NCBI GenBank assembly: GCA_902564025.1
Contig: CACEZK010000005.1
Span: 1-64,000, forward strand
Origin: an uncultured Pelagibacteraceae bacterium
GTDB lineage: Bacteria; Pseudomonadota; Alphaproteobacteria; Pelagibacterales; AG-422-B15
Direction: 5' to 3'
DNA: 64,000 bases
Position 1 is the stretch's first letter. Each line of letters begins with the position of its first letter. Below, in pieces: positions 38,872-62,542 of this stretch. A program made the position numbers and the translations under genes. Under the pieces are notes generated by a model. The model was given only the letters and a program-made list of their open reading frames with translations. It was not told the origin of the DNA and did no database searches.

Positions 38872-39893
38872 TTATCAAGGAACATCAGATAAAAAAAATT
38901 ATTGATGAAAAAAATCAATTTTTGAGTTTTCTCATATATGGTCCTAATGAGGGGCTTGTGAGAGAACAGGTTGATAAAATAACTCATAATTACATTGATA
39001 AAAATGAATATGAGCGAATAAGTTTTAATGGCAAAGATCTCGATAATGATCCAACGTCTCTTGATGGAATAATCAGATCTGTTTCAATGTTTTATACAAA
39101 TAAGATCGTTATTGCAGATGCTATAAAAGACAAGCACATCAAAATTATTGAAGAGATTATTTTAAATGCGCCTCAACAAACAATTTTGATTATCAAAGAC
39201 GGTAATCTAAATAAATCCTCAAAAATAAGAAAGTTTTTTGAAAATGATAAAAAGTGCCTATCACTTGCATGTTATGAAGATGATAGCAGATCTATAATAA
39301 AAAATATTGATGAGTTTGTCGAAAGGAATCACTTTGATCTCAATAGAGATATTAAAAATTATCTTCTACAATCACTAAGTAATGATCGTATGATAAGCAG
39401 AGGTGAACTTGAGAAAATAGAAATATTTTTTTACAAATCAAAGACAAAAATTGAGTTAGATGATGTGAAAAAAATACTAAATGACTCAAGTTCTAATAAT
39501 TTAAATAAAATGAATGAGAATGTTATGTTTGGGAACACCTCTAAAAGTTCCAAAATAGTCAACAAACTATTGTCCGAGGGAACAAGTCCCATAAGCCTTA
39601 TAAGAAGTCTTATAAATTATTTATTGAGAATACAACAAACAAAGATAGAAATGAAAAAAGGTAACAACTTTGATATTTCAATAAAGATACTAAGACCTCC
39701 TGTTTTCTGGAAAGATAAGGATAGTTTTCAAAAACATTGTTATAAATGGCCCTTGCAAGGTATTGAGTCAAATCTTAACAAGCTTTTGGAAACTGAAATT
39801 GCATGTAAGTTAAATAGTAAATTAGCTATTTTTAATTGTGAGAAATCAATACTATTAATTGCAAACAATGGGAAACAATATTTTAAAAATTAA
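38868..39893 (+). CDS. holA: DNA polymerase III delta subunit
   Basis: FLIYGPNEGLVREQVDKI; conserved position after lptE. Confidence 0.88.
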   Translation: MIIKEHQIKKIIDEKNQFLSFLIYGPNEGLVREQVDKITHNYIDKNEYERISFNGKDLDNDPTSLDGIIRSVSMFYTNKIVIADAIKDKHIKIIEEIILNAPQQTILIIKDGNLNKSSKIRKFFENDKKCLSLACYEDDSRSIIKNIDEFVERNHFDLNRDIKNYLLQSLSNDRMISRGELEKIEIFFYKSKTKIELDDVKKILNDSSSNNLNKMNENVMFGNTSKSSKIVNKLLSEGTSPISLIRSLINYLLRIQQTKIEMKKGNNFDISIKILRPPVFWKDKDSFQKHCYKWPLQGIESNLNKLLETEIACKLNSKLAIFNCEKSILLIANNGKQYFKN

Positions 39894-40750
39894 TTTTTTA
39901 ATTTAGTAGTTATCAATTCTAATTGATCAAGCGATTTATATTCTATTTTTATTGAACCACCTTTTTTCCCCTTGTGATCAATCGTTACATTGAGCCCAAG
40001 CTTTGCGGTTAAATTATTTTCCAAATCAATAGTATCTGGATCTTTTAATTTTACCTTTTTAATTCCTGGCTTTTTCTGTTTTGCAAGGTCTTCTGCGGCT
40101 CTTACGCTTAAATTTTCACTAACAATTTTTTCTGCTAATTTTTCTGGAAAAGCACTGTTCATAATTGCGCGAGCGTGACCTGATGAAATTTTTCCCTCTG
40201 ATATCATATCTTGAATTGACTGAGGCAACCCAAGGAGTCTGATTATGTTCGCAATATGACTTCTGCTTTTACCAACAATTTCTGCTAGAACTTCTTGGGT
40301 GTGACCGTGATTTTCAATTAATCTTTTATATCCAGCGGCTTCTTCAATTGGTGATAGATCAGAACGTTGTACATTTTCAATGATTGCTATTTCTAAAGCT
40401 TCCACATCGTTTAGATTCCTTACAACAGCAGGAATCTCATGGAGTTGCGCAATCTGTGCTGCTCTCCATCTTCTTTCTCCAGCAATTATTTCGTAAGTTC
40501 CAGACTCTTTAGGTGAAGGTCTGACTAATATTGGCTGAACAAGTCCTTTTGATTTTATTGATTCAGCTAATTCATTAATACTGCTTTTATCAAATAATCT
40601 TCGAGGCTGGGAAGGACTTGGTTTAAGGTTTGCTATTGAGATTTTTGTTTCTTCATTTGAAATTTTATTTTGGTTTGAAATATCTTTTGTATCACCCATA
40701 AGAGATGAGAGACCACGACCTAAACCTTTCTTTGAAATTGATGAACTCAT
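39890..40750 (-). CDS. parB: chromosome partitioning protein ParB
   Basis: KGLGRGLSSLMGD, PSQPRRLFD, GERRWRAAQIA, HTH. Confidence 0.96.
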   Translation of the reverse strand: MSSSISKKGLGRGLSSLMGDTKDISNQNKISNEETKISIANLKPSPSQPRRLFDKSSINELAESIKSKGLVQPILVRPSPKESGTYEIIAGERRWRAAQIAQLHEIPAVVRNLNDVEALEIAIIENVQRSDLSPIEEAAGYKRLIENHGHTQEVLAEIVGKSRSHIANIIRLLGLPQSIQDMISEGKISSGHARAIMNSAFPEKLAEKIVSENLSVRAAEDLAKQKKPGIKKVKLKDPDTIDLENNLTAKLGLNVTIDHKGKKGGSIKIEYKSLDQLELITTKLKN

Positions 40751-41538
40751 TAAGCTGCCTCCTGTTCTTTATTTTGTCTTATGATCTCATCAGCTAATCT
40801 TAAATATGCCTGGCTACCTGCAGCTTTTTGATCATAGATTAGAGCAGGCATTCCAAACGAAGGTGCTTCTGAAACTCTTACGTTGCGAGGTATAATCGTT
40901 TCATATACCTGCTGACTTAAATGTTTTTTAACATCATCAGCAACTTGTGATGAAAGTTTATTTCTTCCATCAAACATTGTTAAAACTATCCCGTCGATTG
41001 TTAATTTTTGATTAAGATTTTGTTTTACCCTTTCAATTGTTTTTATTAATTGACTAAGACCTTCCAATGCAAAAAATTCACATTGAAGCGGAACGATAAT
41101 TGAGTCCGCCGCAGTCATTGCCATGACAGTGAGCAGACTTAAAGCTGGTGGGCAATCGATAAAAACAAAACTAAAATCATTTAATGAGTTTTGGTCAGTT
41201 AAAATTTTTTTAAGAGTAAAAGCTCTATCGTTTACTTCGGCTAGTTCAGGTTCTATGCCTGATAGGTCCACAGTAGATGGTATAATTTTTAAATTTTCAA
41301 TTTCTGTATTTTGAATTGCATCTAATAAATTGCATTGAGATGCAAGAACTTCATAGATTGAGTTTGTTCTCTTTTGATAATCTATACCCAATCCTGTACT
41401 AGCGTTTCCTTGTGGATCGAGATCAATAATTAGAACTTTTTCCCCAATCGCAGCCAAGGCTGTGGATAAGTTTATAGCAGTGGTAGTTTTTCCCACTCCA
41501 CCTTTCTGATTTGATATTGCTATTATTTTATTTTTCAT
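40750..41538 (-). CDS. parA: chromosome partitioning ATPase ParA
   Basis: AISNQKGGVGKTTTAINL, LIDLDPQGNAST. Confidence 0.97.
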   Translation of the reverse strand: MKNKIIAISNQKGGVGKTTTAINLSTALAAIGEKVLIIDLDPQGNASTGLGIDYQKRTNSIYEVLASQCNLLDAIQNTEIENLKIIPSTVDLSGIEPELAEVNDRAFTLKKILTDQNSLNDFSFVFIDCPPALSLLTVMAMTAADSIIVPLQCEFFALEGLSQLIKTIERVKQNLNQKLTIDGIVLTMFDGRNKLSSQVADDVKKHLSQQVYETIIPRNVRVSEAPSFGMPALIYDQKAAGSQAYLRLADEIIRQNKEQEAA

Positions 41539-42161
41539 TAAGTTATTGATTTTATTATATTTTTTAATTCCAAAATAAAAGAACCTTTTTCTTTTTCATT
41601 TTCGTGCAATACATGAGTAAAATTCCAACATTTAGTAGCTTGCACAATCTCTTCATCTATATGTACACCTTTATGCAGAAGCAATGTAGTGTTTTTTTTG
41701 CATATATTATAACTAATTGATAATAAATGGTTTAATTGACTGACTGCTCTTGCTAAAATGATATCAAATTTTTTATTTTCAATTTTTTCAGCTTTGATGG
41801 GAATCACTTCAGTGTTTTTGAGATCTAGTTTAACAATACATTTATTAAGAAATGATACTCTTTTAGATCTATTCTCGCATAAAAAAACCTTATTTTTTGA
41901 GCCAAATAATAACGAAACTGGTATACCCGGAAGGCCAGGACCACTTCCAATATCAATAATATGATTTCCACTGTTAGTTATAAATTGAGCTAATCTCAGA
42001 GAATCATAAAAATGTCTTGTCCAAATAAAATTCCTATCATTCTTTGATATTAAATTTTGGTTTTCTGCCAAAATCATTTCCCTAAATTCAGCCAATTTTT
42101 CAATTGTTTCACGTGAAACATTTGGCAAGAGCTCTTTTAGAGCATCAGGCGAATCAATCAT
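41538..42161 (-). CDS. rsmG: 16S rRNA (guanine527-N7)-methyltransferase
   Basis: NVSRETIEKL, IDIGSGPGLPGIPVSLL, VSFLNKC. Confidence 0.94.
   Translation of the reverse strand: MIDSPDALKELLPNVSRETIEKLAEFREMILAENQNLISKNDRNFIWTRHFYDSLRLAQFITNSGNHIIDIGSGPGLPGIPVSLLFGSKNKVFLCENRSKRVSFLNKCIVKLDLKNTEVIPIKAEKIENKKFDIILARAVSQLNHLLSISYNICKKNTTLLLHKGVHIDEEIVQATKCWNFTHVLHENEKEKGSFILELKNIIKSIT
42105..42120. promoter_or_regulatory. parS centromere site (ParB binding)
   Basis: TGTTTCACGTGAAACA, perfect 16-bp palindrome identical to the canonical parS consensus, about 1.4 kb from parB. Confidence 0.97.
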
Positions 42162-46704: not shown

Positions 46705-47637
46705 TTATTCAAATTCCATTGAGAATTGTGTATCGCCAAACAAAATCGACGTAACGAACCATCCACCACCTCCCGTAGGCACGAATGTAAATCTTGCAGC
46801 GTAATCAGGTGAGTACTTATACGTAACTGTACTTGTTTGGTCGGTAATCGTAACAGGGCTTGAAAATTTATCTTTGATAATTAATCTAGAGGCGTCACTA
46901 TATGTGCTTGCAAGTTCGCCGCTGTCATTGAGCAAGAAAGTTGAACGATAATTGCCGTTGTGAGATAATGGTGTGTTATTTACCAGCGTGTTAAGGAATT
47001 CGGTCGTTGAAAGAGAATTGTATGTAAAGCTGTAAGTATTGAAGGATGACTGTGATTCAGAAAATGCTTCTGTAAAGCCAAAATAAGTGCCGCTAAGAAA
47101 ATCTTCCATAGTCATGTTACGATTACCTCCACCAATAAATCTAGATGCAGGGGGAAAACTCCAACCTGTTCCCTCGCTATTGCCACCGATCATCAATGTC
47201 TCGTCAAATTCAAGTTCCACATTAATTGGAACTGTAGTTGCAATTTCCGCATAAGCTGCTGTATAGGTGCCTGAAGGAGGTAATGTAGCAGGAAAGCTGG
47301 TCTCAGATGATTTTGTTACACCGAAAGAGATGGAGTTATCTCCCTCCGCAGTGTTCCAGACATAATAACAGGGGTCAGTTGTAGAGTTACCCCTTATGAA
47401 ATCATCTGGATCAGAAGTACACATTGCAAGCTTATAAAATGTTAAACTAAAACTATCGACCGGTGCATCACACGTTATCGCACCGCCAGGGTTAGTACCA
47501 ATATTTCCAAGTTCTGATACATCAATCTTACCATCTACCATAGGACAGTTTTCAAAACCATTAACAGCGTAGAGATTTACACTGAATGTTAAGAAGTAAA
47601 ATAGAAATGCAAATGTGAGGAATAATTTTTTTTGCAT
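46705..47637 (-). CDS. secreted protein of unknown family, partner of the adjacent inverse-autotransporter barrel gene
   Basis: Signal peptide LFLTFAFLFYFLTFSVNLYA; Cys-containing mature region; 1 nt after the upstream gene stop (TAAaATG). Confidence 0.75.
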   Translation of the reverse strand: MQKKLFLTFAFLFYFLTFSVNLYAVNGFENCPMVDGKIDVSELGNIGTNPGGAITCDAPVDSFSLTFYKLAMCTSDPDDFIRGNSTTDPCYYVWNTAEGDNSISFGVTKSSETSFPATLPPSGTYTAAYAEIATTVPINVELEFDETLMIGGNSEGTGWSFPPASRFIGGGNRNMTMEDFLSGTYFGFTEAFSESQSSFNTYSFTYNSLSTTEFLNTLVNNTPLSHNGNYRSTFLLNDSGELASTYSDASRLIIKDKFSSPVTITDQTSTVTYKYSPDYAARFTFVPTGGGGWFVTSILFGDTQFSMEFE

Positions 47638-47638
47638 T

Positions 47639-48532
47639 TTAATATCCTACTATTCTAACCGTTCCGGTTCGGTTTGTTTGTTTTTTTATTTTATTTTCTC
47701 TTCTGACCTTTTCATATTTTCGCTCGCCTACATCGCTAAAACTGTAAAGTGTGTAAGGAACAGAAGAATACATTTTTGCCAATTCACTTAATGGTTGGTT
47801 TTTATTGCTCTTAAATTCAAAGAGATTTACATTGAGTGTGACAAATTCTTCATCACGTGCTAATTGATCAAAGCTGGTTTTGCCAAATTCTAGCGTCATG
47901 CCGAGAGGAAATTTACTTTTTAGACTGTAAGTCTCACCCTCAAGATCTCTGGAACTGTTTATACCGTTCCATGAAAAGACTTCAGCATAGAATTTTGACC
48001 TGGGCAGATAAGGAAGTGGAAATGCAATTTGTGCATCATATCCATCAAGAGTATATTCTCTCAAACCGTCTACTACTACATAGTCCGTTACAGCATCATA
48101 ATAATTTAAATGTATGTCTCCAAGACTTGTGAGAAAATCTGCTCCGATACCAAAACGTTCGTGAGAATTGTCTAAATCTAGATCATAAAATAAATTATAC
48201 CCCATGATTAACTTATTTTCATAAAGGCTGTGCCTTTGCACCAAACCAATATTTAACATTTCTATATCTGCTTGGGTTGAAAGGTGGCCCTGAATAAAAG
48301 TATTTCTATTATTTTGGTCATATAAAGGTAGGATTGTACTTATACCGTATGACGGCTTGCCTTTGTAAAAGCCTGAGAGGTCAACTTCAATATTTTCAAA
48401 AATATCATTCACTGCTAATTCAGCTTTTTCCTCAGCCGTTTCAGCTACTTTTTTTAAAAGCGTGTTTGCAACCTCACTTCCAAAAGCAATGGATGAACAA
48501 AAAAGTGTAATAATGAATAGGACTCGTTTCAT
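47639..48532 (-). CDS. inverse autotransporter (intimin/invasin-type) beta-barrel domain protein without passenger
   Basis: Signal peptide; GISTILPLYDQNNRNTFIQGHLSTQ...NIGLVQRHSLYENKLIMGYNLFYDLDLDNSHERFGIGADFLTS; post-barrel linker YEKVRRENKI. Confidence 0.82.
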   Translation of the reverse strand: MKRVLFIITLFCSSIAFGSEVANTLLKKVAETAEEKAELAVNDIFENIEVDLSGFYKGKPSYGISTILPLYDQNNRNTFIQGHLSTQADIEMLNIGLVQRHSLYENKLIMGYNLFYDLDLDNSHERFGIGADFLTSLGDIHLNYYDAVTDYVVVDGLREYTLDGYDAQIAFPLPYLPRSKFYAEVFSWNGINSSRDLEGETYSLKSKFPLGMTLEFGKTSFDQLARDEEFVTLNVNLFEFKSNKNQPLSELAKMYSSVPYTLYSFSDVGERKYEKVRRENKIKKQTNRTGTVRIVGY

Positions 48533-50372: not shown

Positions 50373-51388
50373 CTTAATTCTTGATCACATTGTTTAAACG
50401 TTGCTGGACATATTTTTTGCCTGATATTACCACTCTCAATTTTCTCAGACTCACTAACTATTTCAGATAAGCTTTCTATAAATGTTTGATCAATATTTAA
50501 AGACTCAGATCTATAATAATGCTCACAGCCTAATTCACTTGCAAGTTCTTGGTACTCGATATCTAATTCAACGAGTGTTTCAGAGTGATCCGAGACAAAC
50601 GCAATTGGAACAATAACCAGCGCCCTATCTTCGCTAATTGCATTTTCAATTTCACTTGGTGTTGTTGGTTCAAGCCATTTAACTGGGGTAACTTTACTTT
50701 GATAAGCCAAAACATGATCTTCATAACCATGGATGCCCTGCGTGACCGCCTTAACTGTTTGCTCCACTTGCCACTGATATGGATCACCTTTTTTAATGAT
50801 TGATACGGGTAAACTGTGAGCGGAGAACAGAACTCTTACTTTCTTATCTTTGACGTGGTTTATTTTATCTTGGATCAGTTTTTGATGGGCTTTTATTAAC
50901 TTCGCATCATATGGATAACAACAGGTGTATTTTGTTTTTGCATTTAATTCCTGTTTTTGGGCTTCCTTGAACCATGCGTCCAGAGAAGATTTTGTTGTTG
51001 TTGTGGAGTACTGTGGATACAGTGGCAGTAAAAATATTTTGTCTGGATTATAGTCTTTGACTTTTGAAACGACCTCGGCTGTCATTGGATGCCAATATCT
51101 CATACAAACAAATACCTTGTTCTCGATGCCTTTGTTTTTTAAGTCTTTCTGTAGGGCTTCAGCTTGTGAGTTAGTAATTTCAAGAATGGGTGATTTGCCG
51201 CCAATTTCGGCATAAATTTCAGTAGCCTCTTTGGTGCGACGAGAAGATATAAGCTTTGCCAATAAATACCTGAAGGGATTTGGAAGTCTAAATATATTGG
51301 GGTCATTAAACAGATTAAATAAAAAAGGCTTTACGCTTTCTTGTTTGTCTGGTCCGCCCAAGTTAAATAGAATTACCGCTGTTTTCAT
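50369..51388 (-). CDS. hemH: ferrochelatase
   Basis: AVILFNLGGPD, LPLYPQYSTTTTKS, LFSAHSLPVSII. Confidence 0.95.
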   Translation of the reverse strand: MKTAVILFNLGGPDKQESVKPFLFNLFNDPNIFRLPNPFRYLLAKLISSRRTKEATEIYAEIGGKSPILEITNSQAEALQKDLKNKGIENKVFVCMRYWHPMTAEVVSKVKDYNPDKIFLLPLYPQYSTTTTKSSLDAWFKEAQKQELNAKTKYTCCYPYDAKLIKAHQKLIQDKINHVKDKKVRVLFSAHSLPVSIIKKGDPYQWQVEQTVKAVTQGIHGYEDHVLAYQSKVTPVKWLEPTTPSEIENAISEDRALVIVPIAFVSDHSETLVELDIEYQELASELGCEHYYRSESLNIDQTFIESLSEIVSESEKIESGNIRQKICPATFKQCDQELR

Positions 51389-52371
51389 TTTGATCTTATC
51401 TGTAAGAGCATTTGCTCAACTTTCTCAATTGATGTTTCGGGTAAAACCCCATGTCCTAAATTGAAAATATGCGGTCTTTCTCTAAAAGCAAACAGTATTT
51501 CTTCAATCTTCTGACTAAGGTTTTGGGATTCTTTTAATAGGTGTTTAGGATCTAGATTTCCTTGAAAAACAATTTTATCGTTTAACTCATTAATTTTATC
51601 TAGAGGAAAACTATAATCTAAAGTAATACAGTCAAGATTGTCTATGTTTGAATATTTTTTATAACATGCAAAATTAGTATTTCTGGGAAAGCCAATGATG
51701 GGAATGTCTTTTATTTTTTTTATACTTTCGGTTATTTTTTTTGTCGGTTGAATACACCATTTGTTGAACTGTTCGTCATTCAGGTATCCTGCGGCTGACT
51801 CAAATATTTGAAAAACATCAATCCCACAATCAATTTGCATTTCTGCGTGTTGAATAATGGCTTGTGTCATTTGTTCAATTAAATGATCTATTTGCGAAGT
51901 CTTTTTTGCAACGTCCTCGAATTTTATTTTTTGACGCTCATTCTTTTCATATAAACAATAAAACAGTGTTGTCCATGCTCCGCCAGCAAATCCTATTAAA
52001 GGGATATCTGTATTTTCTTTTATTTTTTTTATTCCTGTTGCAATAGGTAAGGTTTTTTCGTGATTATAACTCATGTTCTCATTAAACTTTACTACTGGAC
52101 CTTGTCCTTCAACAAAACTAACACTTGAGCCTGCAGCAAAAGGGGTTATTAAAATGTCTGAAAACACAATACAGGCATCCATGCCATACCTGTTTACTGG
52201 TTGCAGGGAAACTTCAAGTATTGTCGAAGGATCAAGAAACATATCCATAAGACTTGTAAACCGATTTCTGATATTTATGTATTCAGGCAAATGTCTTCCT
52301 GCCTGTCTCATTAACCAGACTGGTGTCGGGTTTGTTTTTTGTCCTTTAAGTGTGTCTATAAATATACTCAT
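51385..52371 (-). CDS. hemE: uroporphyrinogen decarboxylase
   Basis: PTPVWLMRQAGRHLPEY, FSDILITPFAAG; start refined to ATG at 52371 (MSIFIDTLKG). Confidence 0.95.
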   Translation of the reverse strand: MSIFIDTLKGQKTNPTPVWLMRQAGRHLPEYINIRNRFTSLMDMFLDPSTILEVSLQPVNRYGMDACIVFSDILITPFAAGSSVSFVEGQGPVVKFNENMSYNHEKTLPIATGIKKIKENTDIPLIGFAGGAWTTLFYCLYEKNERQKIKFEDVAKKTSQIDHLIEQMTQAIIQHAEMQIDCGIDVFQIFESAAGYLNDEQFNKWCIQPTKKITESIKKIKDIPIIGFPRNTNFACYKKYSNIDNLDCITLDYSFPLDKINELNDKIVFQGNLDPKHLLKESQNLSQKIEEILFAFRERPHIFNLGHGVLPETSIEKVEQMLLQIRSK

Positions 52372-52644
52372 TATATTATATATATAATTGTAGTTGTTTA
52401 TGTTCCTGTGGAATTGTGTATATATAAAAAGTCGCTTTTTGCCCACAATTCGATACACAGAACAATCGCTTTGAATTATATGCTTTTTAACCTTATACAC
52501 CGACGTGGAAGAAAACTGCAATATCCCCAACAAGTGAACAAAGTTTGCAAAAGTTCTCAATAAAGATAGAAAAATAAGTTAAAAATTACAGATGGGCAAA
52601 GATAGTAAAAGTACTCACAGGTCTTAGAGGGTTTATACAGGTTT
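52372..52644. other. candidate chromosomal replication origin (oriC)
   Basis: Divergent hemE/maf intergenic region (position of Caulobacter Cori); AT-rich TATA tract 52372-52390; DnaA-box-like TTATACACC (52493-52501), ATATACACA (minus, 52415-52423), cgATACACA (52451-52459). Confidence 0.65.
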
Positions 52645-53250
52645 ATGAACAGGGATATAATTTTAGCATCTAAAAGTGAAACAAGAATTAAATTGTTACG
52701 CAACGCCGGCATAACTTTTGAGCCCGTTGCCCATGGTGTTGATGAGGACGAGGTAAAGCTGTCGATGAGCAAAAACACACCCGAAGAGGTTGTGGTTAAA
52801 CTTGCTGAGATGAAGGCCTTGAAGCCTTCCATGTCTAATAAAGGTGCATTTGTTATTGGATCAGACCAGGGTTTGGATCTGAAAGGTGAATTAATTAATA
52901 AGGCTAGGGACAGAAACGAAGCAAAAGACCAATTGTTGAAAATGAGTGGATGTATCCACACACTCATAACTGCCACAACAGTCGCTCAAGACAACAACAT
53001 TATTTGGAAGTATGTAGACAGATCTAAAATGCATATGAGAAAACTAAGCGAGGATCTGATAAAAGAGTATTTAAATAAAGTCGACGATAATATTCTTGGT
53101 CTTGTAGGCGTCTATGCAATAGAGAACGAAGGAATTAAACTTTTTGAAAATATTGGGAGCGACCTTTTTTCAATACAAGGCATATCATTAATTCAATTAA
53201 CCCAGTTCCTTTGGGATAATAATCTTCTATTTGAAAACAATGGCACATAA
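52645..53250 (+). CDS. maf: Maf family nucleotide pyrophosphatase
   Basis: ILASKSETRIKLLRNAGI; GSDQGLDLKGELINKA. Confidence 0.9.
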   Translation: MNRDIILASKSETRIKLLRNAGITFEPVAHGVDEDEVKLSMSKNTPEEVVVKLAEMKALKPSMSNKGAFVIGSDQGLDLKGELINKARDRNEAKDQLLKMSGCIHTLITATTVAQDNNIIWKYVDRSKMHMRKLSEDLIKEYLNKVDDNILGLVGVYAIENEGIKLFENIGSDLFSIQGISLIQLTQFLWDNNLLFENNGT

Positions 53251-56611: not shown

Positions 56612-57040
56612 TTATTTTTCCTCTTCATCAATATCAATGAATTCACCCTCAATGGTATTTTTATTCTGATTACTTTGCTTACCATATCTAGAAAGAATAT
56701 AACTTGCTACTAACTTTATGAAAATTATTCTAGTGAATGGTATCAATCCTAGAAAACCTAAAGCATCAGTAAAAAATCCAGGAGTAATTAAAAGAATACC
56801 AGAGATAAGGATGACTAGCCCTTCAAACATCGTCTGAACAGGTGTTTCTAAATTTTGCAATTGAAACGTTAACTTTTGAAATGCGCTTATTCCTTGCTGA
56901 CGGACAAAAAATACACCCACAATTGCAGTGATGAATATAAGTATTATGGTGTAGAACGATCCAATAATGCTCCCAATTTCAATAAATAAACTAATTTCAA
57001 TGATTGGGATAAGTATAAAAAGTACAATAAATAAAAACAA
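56612..57040 (-). CDS. fxsA: FxsA family membrane protein
   Basis: IPIIEISLFIEIGSIIG, LVILISGILLITPGFFTDALGFLGLIPFTR. Confidence 0.92.
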   Translation of the reverse strand: MFLFIVLFILIPIIEISLFIEIGSIIGSFYTIILIFITAIVGVFFVRQQGISAFQKLTFQLQNLETPVQTMFEGLVILISGILLITPGFFTDALGFLGLIPFTRIIFIKLVASYILSRYGKQSNQNKNTIEGEFIDIDEEEK

Positions 57041-57107
57041 AATAAGTAAGTAATTGTTGAAAGTTTAGTTTAAATACCTAAATAAGGACTCTATAATATT
57101 TAACTAT

Positions 57108-61188: not shown

Positions 61189-61823
61189 AGTTAGTAATTA
61201 TCAACTACGGCTCAGGAAATTTACATTCAGTACACAAGGCATTTGAAGCCGTAAACAATAACTTAGAAAATCCATATGAAATTATTGTTACAAACACACC
61301 ATTTGAAATATTAAACGCCGATAAATTAGTTCTCCCTGGAGTTGGAGCTTTTCAAGACTGTAAGAACGCAATTCACAAAATAGACGGTCTATTTGAAAGT
61401 CTTGAACAAGTGGTAATTGGCGAAAAAAAAGCTTTTATGGGCATTTGTGTTGGAATGCAATTACTAGCAGAAAAATCCTTAGAATTTGGTGAATGTGAGG
61501 GCTTTGGATGGATACCCGGAGAAGTAATCAAGATCGAGGCTCCAGCTGATTATAAAATTCCACACATGGGATGGAATGAAGTCACTTTTCGCAATCATGA
61601 ATTATTGAATAATATTTCACAAAATACTGATTTTTATTTTGTGCACAGTTACTACTTTAGAACTCAAAAAAATGAAAATTGTATTGCAACTACAAAATAT
61701 CCAAATCCAATTACTGCAGCAGTACTCAAGGAAAATATTTTTGGTACACAATTTCATCCAGAAAAAAGTCATAATAACGGAAAACAAATAATTACAAACT
61801 TTCTCGAGTGGGAACCTTCATGA
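61185..61823 (+). CDS. hisH: imidazole glycerol phosphate synthase subunit HisH
   Basis: VIINYGSGNLHSV, MGICVGMQLLAEKS, GTQFHPEKSH. Confidence 0.96.
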   Translation: MKLVIINYGSGNLHSVHKAFEAVNNNLENPYEIIVTNTPFEILNADKLVLPGVGAFQDCKNAIHKIDGLFESLEQVVIGEKKAFMGICVGMQLLAEKSLEFGECEGFGWIPGEVIKIEAPADYKIPHMGWNEVTFRNHELLNNISQNTDFYFVHSYYFRTQKNENCIATTKYPNPITAAVLKENIFGTQFHPEKSHNNGKQIITNFLEWEPS

Positions 61824-62542
61824 TTTTATTTCCAGCAATTGACTTAAAAGACGGTAAATGTGTAAGATTAATACAAGGTGATTTTACACAATCTACAACA
61901 TACAATGAGTCACCGTTAGAACAGGCTAAAATTTTTGAAGACTCTGGAGTGGAATATTTGCATTGCGTTGACCTAGATGGTGCGCTTAAGGGCAATTTTG
62001 AAAATATTAAATCTATTGAGCAAATAAAAAAAAATACGAATCTTAGGATTCAGTTCGGTGGCGGAGTAAGGAATATAGAAAGAGTTGAAAGACTCATTAA
62101 TATTGGTGTTAATAATGTTATTATCGGAACATCAGTGTTTGAAAATAAAACTTTTTTTGAGAAATCAGTTTGCAATTATCCTAATAAAATTTCAATCGCT
62201 CTCGACATTAAGCAGAACCAAATTGCTACAAAAGGCTGGAAAGAGGTAAAAGATTTACAAATTTCTGATTTTTTAAAAAGTATAGAAGATCTTAATATCA
62301 ACTCAATAATAATTACTGACGTTATGAGGGATGGCATGAAGCAAGGAATTAACTTTGAAATGCTAGAAAATGTAATGGTTCAAACAAAAATTGACTGTGT
62401 TGCATCAGGCGGGGTATCAAATATCTCGGACCTTATTAACCTAAAGAAAAAAAATTACTCACAAATAAAAGGTGTAATTGTAGGTAAAGCAATTTATGAC
62501 AAAAATATTGATATTGCTGAGGCATTAAAGATAGTTAGATAG
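61820..62542 (+). CDS. hisA: ProFAR isomerase HisA
   Basis: [34 protein letters not shown]; start at [10 protein letters not shown] preferred to the ORF-track start. Confidence 0.95.

Follow-up and report, generated by a model that had tools for sequence, protein, structure and literature searches.

Is the short divergent gap between hemE and maf the place at which this bacterium begins to replicate its chromosome? Bacteria of the SAR11 group rank among the sea's most abundant cells. Our search of the literature on oriC, the origin or GC skew in SAR11 or Pelagibacter brought up no origin determined by experiment, and the oriC of HTCC1062 has been described as 'manually identified' (PMC4033161). 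Origins adjacent to hemE have experimental support in Caulobacter (PMC1914354) and, by marker frequency, in Hyphomonas neptunium (PMC6650430). An earlier note on this DNA had proposed the gap as a candidate oriC, mainly on grounds of synteny. The window, the 64-kb stretch examined here, opens contig C5 of a Pelagibacterales (SAR11-order) assembly of 1.09 Mb (44 contigs, 77% complete); complete genomes within the same order measure 1.2-1.5 Mb. We refer to the window's family as f1, its sister family as f2 and its genus as g1.

Results

Direct reading of the sequence placed the start of hemE (51388-52371, minus strand; URO-D match, E 5e-76) at 52371 and that of maf (52645-53250, plus strand; Maf match, E 8e-37) at 52645, leaving a divergent gap of 273 bp at 52372-52644, exactly as previously drawn. 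Its description as the largest divergent gap of the hemE-maf neighbourhood holds, but it is not the largest gap of any kind in the whole window, as judged from crude ORF calls. A 277-bp stretch at 56831-57107 that had passed for a gene-free gap was rejected as an artefact, because the ORF rule accepted only ATG while fxsA, which lies there, starts with TTG. All 30 same-genus loci (the window included) have a gap of 271-277 bp, in a set where the other loci's hemE proteins are 57-92% identical to that of the window. Between the gap and maf, the f2 loci that we examined have an ORF of ~271-275 aa whose beginning resembles that of a kinase-pyrophosphorylase (pprP/COG1806, as judged by eye), and the gap from hemE to this ORF is also ~270-285 bp. 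This pprP-like gene is absent from that place in f1; the simplest reading is that f1 lost it from the hemE-maf interval and kept the origin. Elsewhere in the window, an inverse-autotransporter beta-domain protein (47639-48532, minus strand; PF11924, E 6e-24) and its secreted-looking neighbour (46705-47637) are located between rho and apt, unlike in several relatives where apt directly adjoins rho.

Read from the hemE side on the plus strand, the gap presents an A/T-rich tract, the trinucleotides TTG-TAG-TTG, a spacer (TTTATGTTCC), an inner box and then boxes A, B, C and D towards maf. The tract (52372-52392, at the start of hemE) is 95% A+T, ranks in the top 0.5% of the window's 21-mers and is a putative unwinding element; TATATTATATATATAATTG begins at 52372 by direct read, beside hemE as the earlier note had it. 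The trinucleotides (52388-52396, plus strand) form a degenerate DnaA-trio stretch, 3'-GTT-GAT-GTT-5' when read away from the box. The inner DnaA-box-like site, AATTCCACA (CCTGTGGAA on the plus strand; 52407-52415, minus strand; score 5.1), falls within the most conserved block and adjoins box A, ATATACACA (52415-52423, minus strand; score 9.7), whose position and strand are the same in four genera and in several genomes of the sister family, where box A reads TTATTCACA. Box B, TTGCCCACA (52439-52447, plus strand; score 8.3), has TTATCCACA at the same place in g2, and is followed by a weaker site, CGATACACA (52451-52459, plus strand; score 6.2), that is kept in close relatives. Box C, TTATACACC (52493-52501, plus strand; score 8.1), is TTATACACA in g3 and TTACCCACA in distant congeners, and a further box-like site, TCTTCCACG, stands at 52504 (minus strand). 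Next come a weak site, ATATCCCCA (52521-52529, plus strand; score 6.9), near the place of TTATCCACA in the distant congeners L025, L026, L029, L031 and L032, and box D, TTGTTCACT (52533-52541, minus strand), which is weak here (score 4.0) and is TTATCCACC in g3 and g4. The last is a weak site, GTACTCACA (52611-52619, plus strand; score 5.8), with ATATCCACA in distant congeners. The three boxes first reported, at 52493 (plus), 52415 (minus) and 52451 (plus), were all found where they had been placed, while the sites at 52407 (minus), 52439 (plus), 52504 (minus), 52521 (plus) and 52611 (plus) had been missed; in line with the earlier remark that none of the boxes was perfect, this species' gap holds no perfect DnaA box. 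A perfect 9-bp inverted repeat at 52376-52384 and 52419-52427 (TTATATATA and TATATATAA) brackets the trinucleotide stretch and the inner boxes.

Conservation is concentrated around these inner elements. The block at 52395-52430 shares 83% identity with distant congeners (L025-L032), compared with 55% for the whole gap and 38-46% for third codon positions of the flanking genes in the same comparison. In all four f1 genera, box-like 9-mers occur on the same strand and at near-equal distances from hemE (A near 44, B near 68, C near 122 and D near 162 bp), some of them weak in individual lineages and some of them perfect TTATCCACA or TTATACACA in relatives; between genera, the box sequences turn over within the DnaA consensus. 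In f2, positions A and B score above shuffled controls and position C does not. Since the position ranges for this cross-genus comparison were chosen after the matches had been seen, and since the lineages are related, exact probabilities are not to be trusted, although the separation from the control is still large. The case for an origin no longer rests mainly on synteny, because the boxes keep their place and orientation from genus to genus.

Box density was scored with a weight matrix for DnaA boxes, which was built by hand on the known consensus and scanned over the window and over G045, a genome of the same genus rated 100% complete (~1.16 Mb scanned). Within the window, segments overlapping the gap are the richest in DnaA-like 9-mers at all thresholds from 0 to 5, and the fraction of segments at least as dense as the gap is 0.001-0.003; at threshold 5 the gap has 12 matches vs 8 for the runner-up. 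At threshold 6, the strictest, it ties with a locus at about 61.6 kb, because the boxes of the window's species are degenerate. That locus is a second peak of DnaA-box-like 9-mers (~61490-61890) inside hisH, and is probably due to chance in coding sequence. In G045, the richest 273-bp segment in the ~1.16 Mb is the orthologous gap, or a segment at most 100 bp away, for all thresholds from 2 to 6. At threshold 6 it has 10 matches, whereas the next locus has 5 and the genome-wide mean is 0.70; of 200 motifs with permuted columns, one placed the gap as high as the true motif did. In G057, a complete genome of the sister family, the box density of the gap does not stand out at the approximate gap position used.

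Conservation of the gap could be explained in another way. Divergent genes need promoters, and the conserved blocks could be transcription-factor sites, in which case the gap would be kept merely as a two-way promoter or regulatory region for hemE and maf while replication starts elsewhere. We consider this very unlikely, as the right-hand gene in f2 is a different one (pprP-like), yet the gap there is still ~275 bp long with boxes A and B, and as the conserved positions follow the DnaA consensus within what is, in G045, the densest box cluster.

An origin at or near dnaA, or elsewhere, with the hemE synteny as a relic, has in its favour that oriC adjoins dnaA in many bacteria and that the G057 record begins at dnaA. 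GC skew bears on this point; the own genome is in 44 contigs, so the skew check put forward in the earlier note was run on relatives. In G057 (1,160,202 bp) the cumulative skew, once detrended, reaches its minimum at 1,072,618, 17 kb from hemE (1,089,028-1,089,996), and its maximum half a chromosome from there, at 493,446; dnaA, at the record start, is ~70 kb from hemE on the side opposite to the minimum. Without detrending, the lowest value falls at the record start because the circular record was cut there. The skew of G045 is too weak for precise placement, which leaves some room for an origin elsewhere: its lowest point, at 385,190 on a 660-kb contig, is 38 kb from hemE (423,672), within a basin that includes hemE but is broad. 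Where dnaA and hemE share one contig in relatives, they are 61-70 kb apart. A better DnaA-box cluster near dnaA, sought as grounds for refutation, was found neither in the own genome, where the ~317-bp gap upstream of dnaA has one box-like match vs 10 in the hemE-maf gap, nor at the dnaA loci of four relatives, with at most 5 per 273 bp. A strict TTATNCACA search found no cluster anywhere in the own assembly, which speaks against a dnaA origin and also makes the strict search uninformative for placing the origin. Taken with the skew position observed in G057, these counts make a start site at dnaA or elsewhere more improbable still than the promoter explanation. Least probable of all is a conserved small RNA or leader encoded here: the gap is a non-coding stretch of high nucleotide conservation, but the conserved positions are box-like and vary between genera within the DnaA consensus, and an Rfam search of the gap gave no match up to E = 1.

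The DnaA of the own genome has an intact box-recognition signature (GGRDHTTVIHA). The dnaA reading frame of G050 (L194, C1:36316-37728) carries one TAA stop, either an assembly error or a real lesion.

We also compared the hemE end of the gap with the basal unwinding system (BUS), using the published trio rule simplified to one box: three or more 3'-NAN-5' trios no further than 16 bp from a box that has at most 2 mismatches (PMC8287927). Boxes, a short spacer, a trinucleotide stretch and A/T-rich DNA follow one another in the window in BUS order and strand polarity (PMC8287927). The window's trinucleotides differ in being GTT-GAT-GTT, so that fewer than three consecutive trios have a central A, and neither the window nor six other same-genus gaps tested contain the arrangement that the simplified rule describes. 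It is present at the corresponding spot in L080 (g2), L077 and L079 (g3) and L082 (g4), and in five f2 loci (L073, L074 and L088-L090), and absent from L078, L081 and several f2 loci; shuffled sequence yields it in 3-14% of cases. Repeats of TAGTAGTAG lie at the same place in g2, g3 and g4. The GTT-GAT-GTT form is kept in the window's close relatives, and G050 has GTT-GTT-GTT.

A perfect 16-bp parS palindrome, TGTTTCACGTGAAACA (42105-42120), lies 10.3 kb from the gap, in agreement with the distance of about 10 kb given before, and parB and parA (39890-41538, minus strand) encode a protein with ParB domains and an AAA_31/ParA-type ATPase. The gap has half sites for CtrA and no full site (TTAA-N7-TTAA), and no full match to a strict IHF site or to GANTC; a ctrA ortholog has been reported absent from Pelagibacter (PMC2877005). 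GcrA (PF07750) was detected in six of nine genomes searched (G045, G001, G007, G055, G057 and G058) and was not found in the own, incomplete assembly; genomes of the SAR11 order thus have GcrA, even though GANTC is absent from the origin gap examined here.

Discussion

The box-density peak, the conservation of boxes across genera and the lack of a better cluster at dnaA together support the earlier oriC call, and we predict that the hemE-maf gap is the chromosomal replication origin with a probability of roughly 0.93. As read from its sequence, it would be an oriC of the hemE-linked alphaproteobacterial type, ordinary in location, with weak and degenerate DnaA sites. We infer that DnaA would bind an array of mostly weak 9-mer boxes spread across the gap, and that the two adjoining boxes at 52407-52423 would steer it leftwards, across the degenerate trinucleotides, to the A/T-rich tract at the start of hemE, which would then melt. 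Helicase loading would follow, and two forks would depart, one through hemE and the other through maf; ParB bound to parS 10 kb away may then aid segregation of the new origins.

Like Cori of Caulobacter crescentus, the window's gap lies beside hemE, with several weak DnaA sites and an A/T-rich part (PMC1914354, PMC4285127), and the Caulobacter order hemE-ori-COG1806 (PMC1914354) is retained in f2 as hemE-gap-pprP. It differs from Cori in having no full CtrA or strict IHF site, and in having maf rather than pprP as neighbour. In the origins of Wolbachia and the Rickettsiales, too, hemE is a boundary gene and DnaA sites are conserved (PMC1914354); in contrast to the window, these origins mostly have CtrA and IHF sites, and the partner gene in Wolbachia is a CBS-domain gene. 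Control of the window's origin is likely exerted at the level of DnaA itself.

In Bacillus subtilis the central adenine of the trio is important: strand separation and initiation are both reduced when thymine replaces it (PMC10721633). Given this effect and the window's departure from the trio rule, its origin may either work with a trio that is weaker or of variant form, or depend on the boxes to direct melting of the neighbouring A/T tract. Speculatively, and we think it on the whole unlikely, the trio in the window's genus may have drifted from repeated 3'-GAT-5' to 3'-GTT-GAT-GTT-5', such that the origin is opened largely without the central adenines that DnaA is thought to read. The DnaA of this genus has Phe at what we take to be the place of the adenine-contacting Asn187 of B. 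subtilis. A co-evolving DnaA residue behind the trio change is nevertheless unsupported, since relatives with intact GAT repeats also carry Phe there, and the protein change therefore does not track trio loss.

In conclusion, the window's gap would represent an alphaproteobacterial origin that is compact and lacks recognisable CtrA sites. The drift from GAT to GTT, if it occurred, would put the stringency of DnaA-trio recognition to a natural test. A defined origin would anchor read-depth growth estimates at hemE, and not at dnaA, where the G057 record begins.
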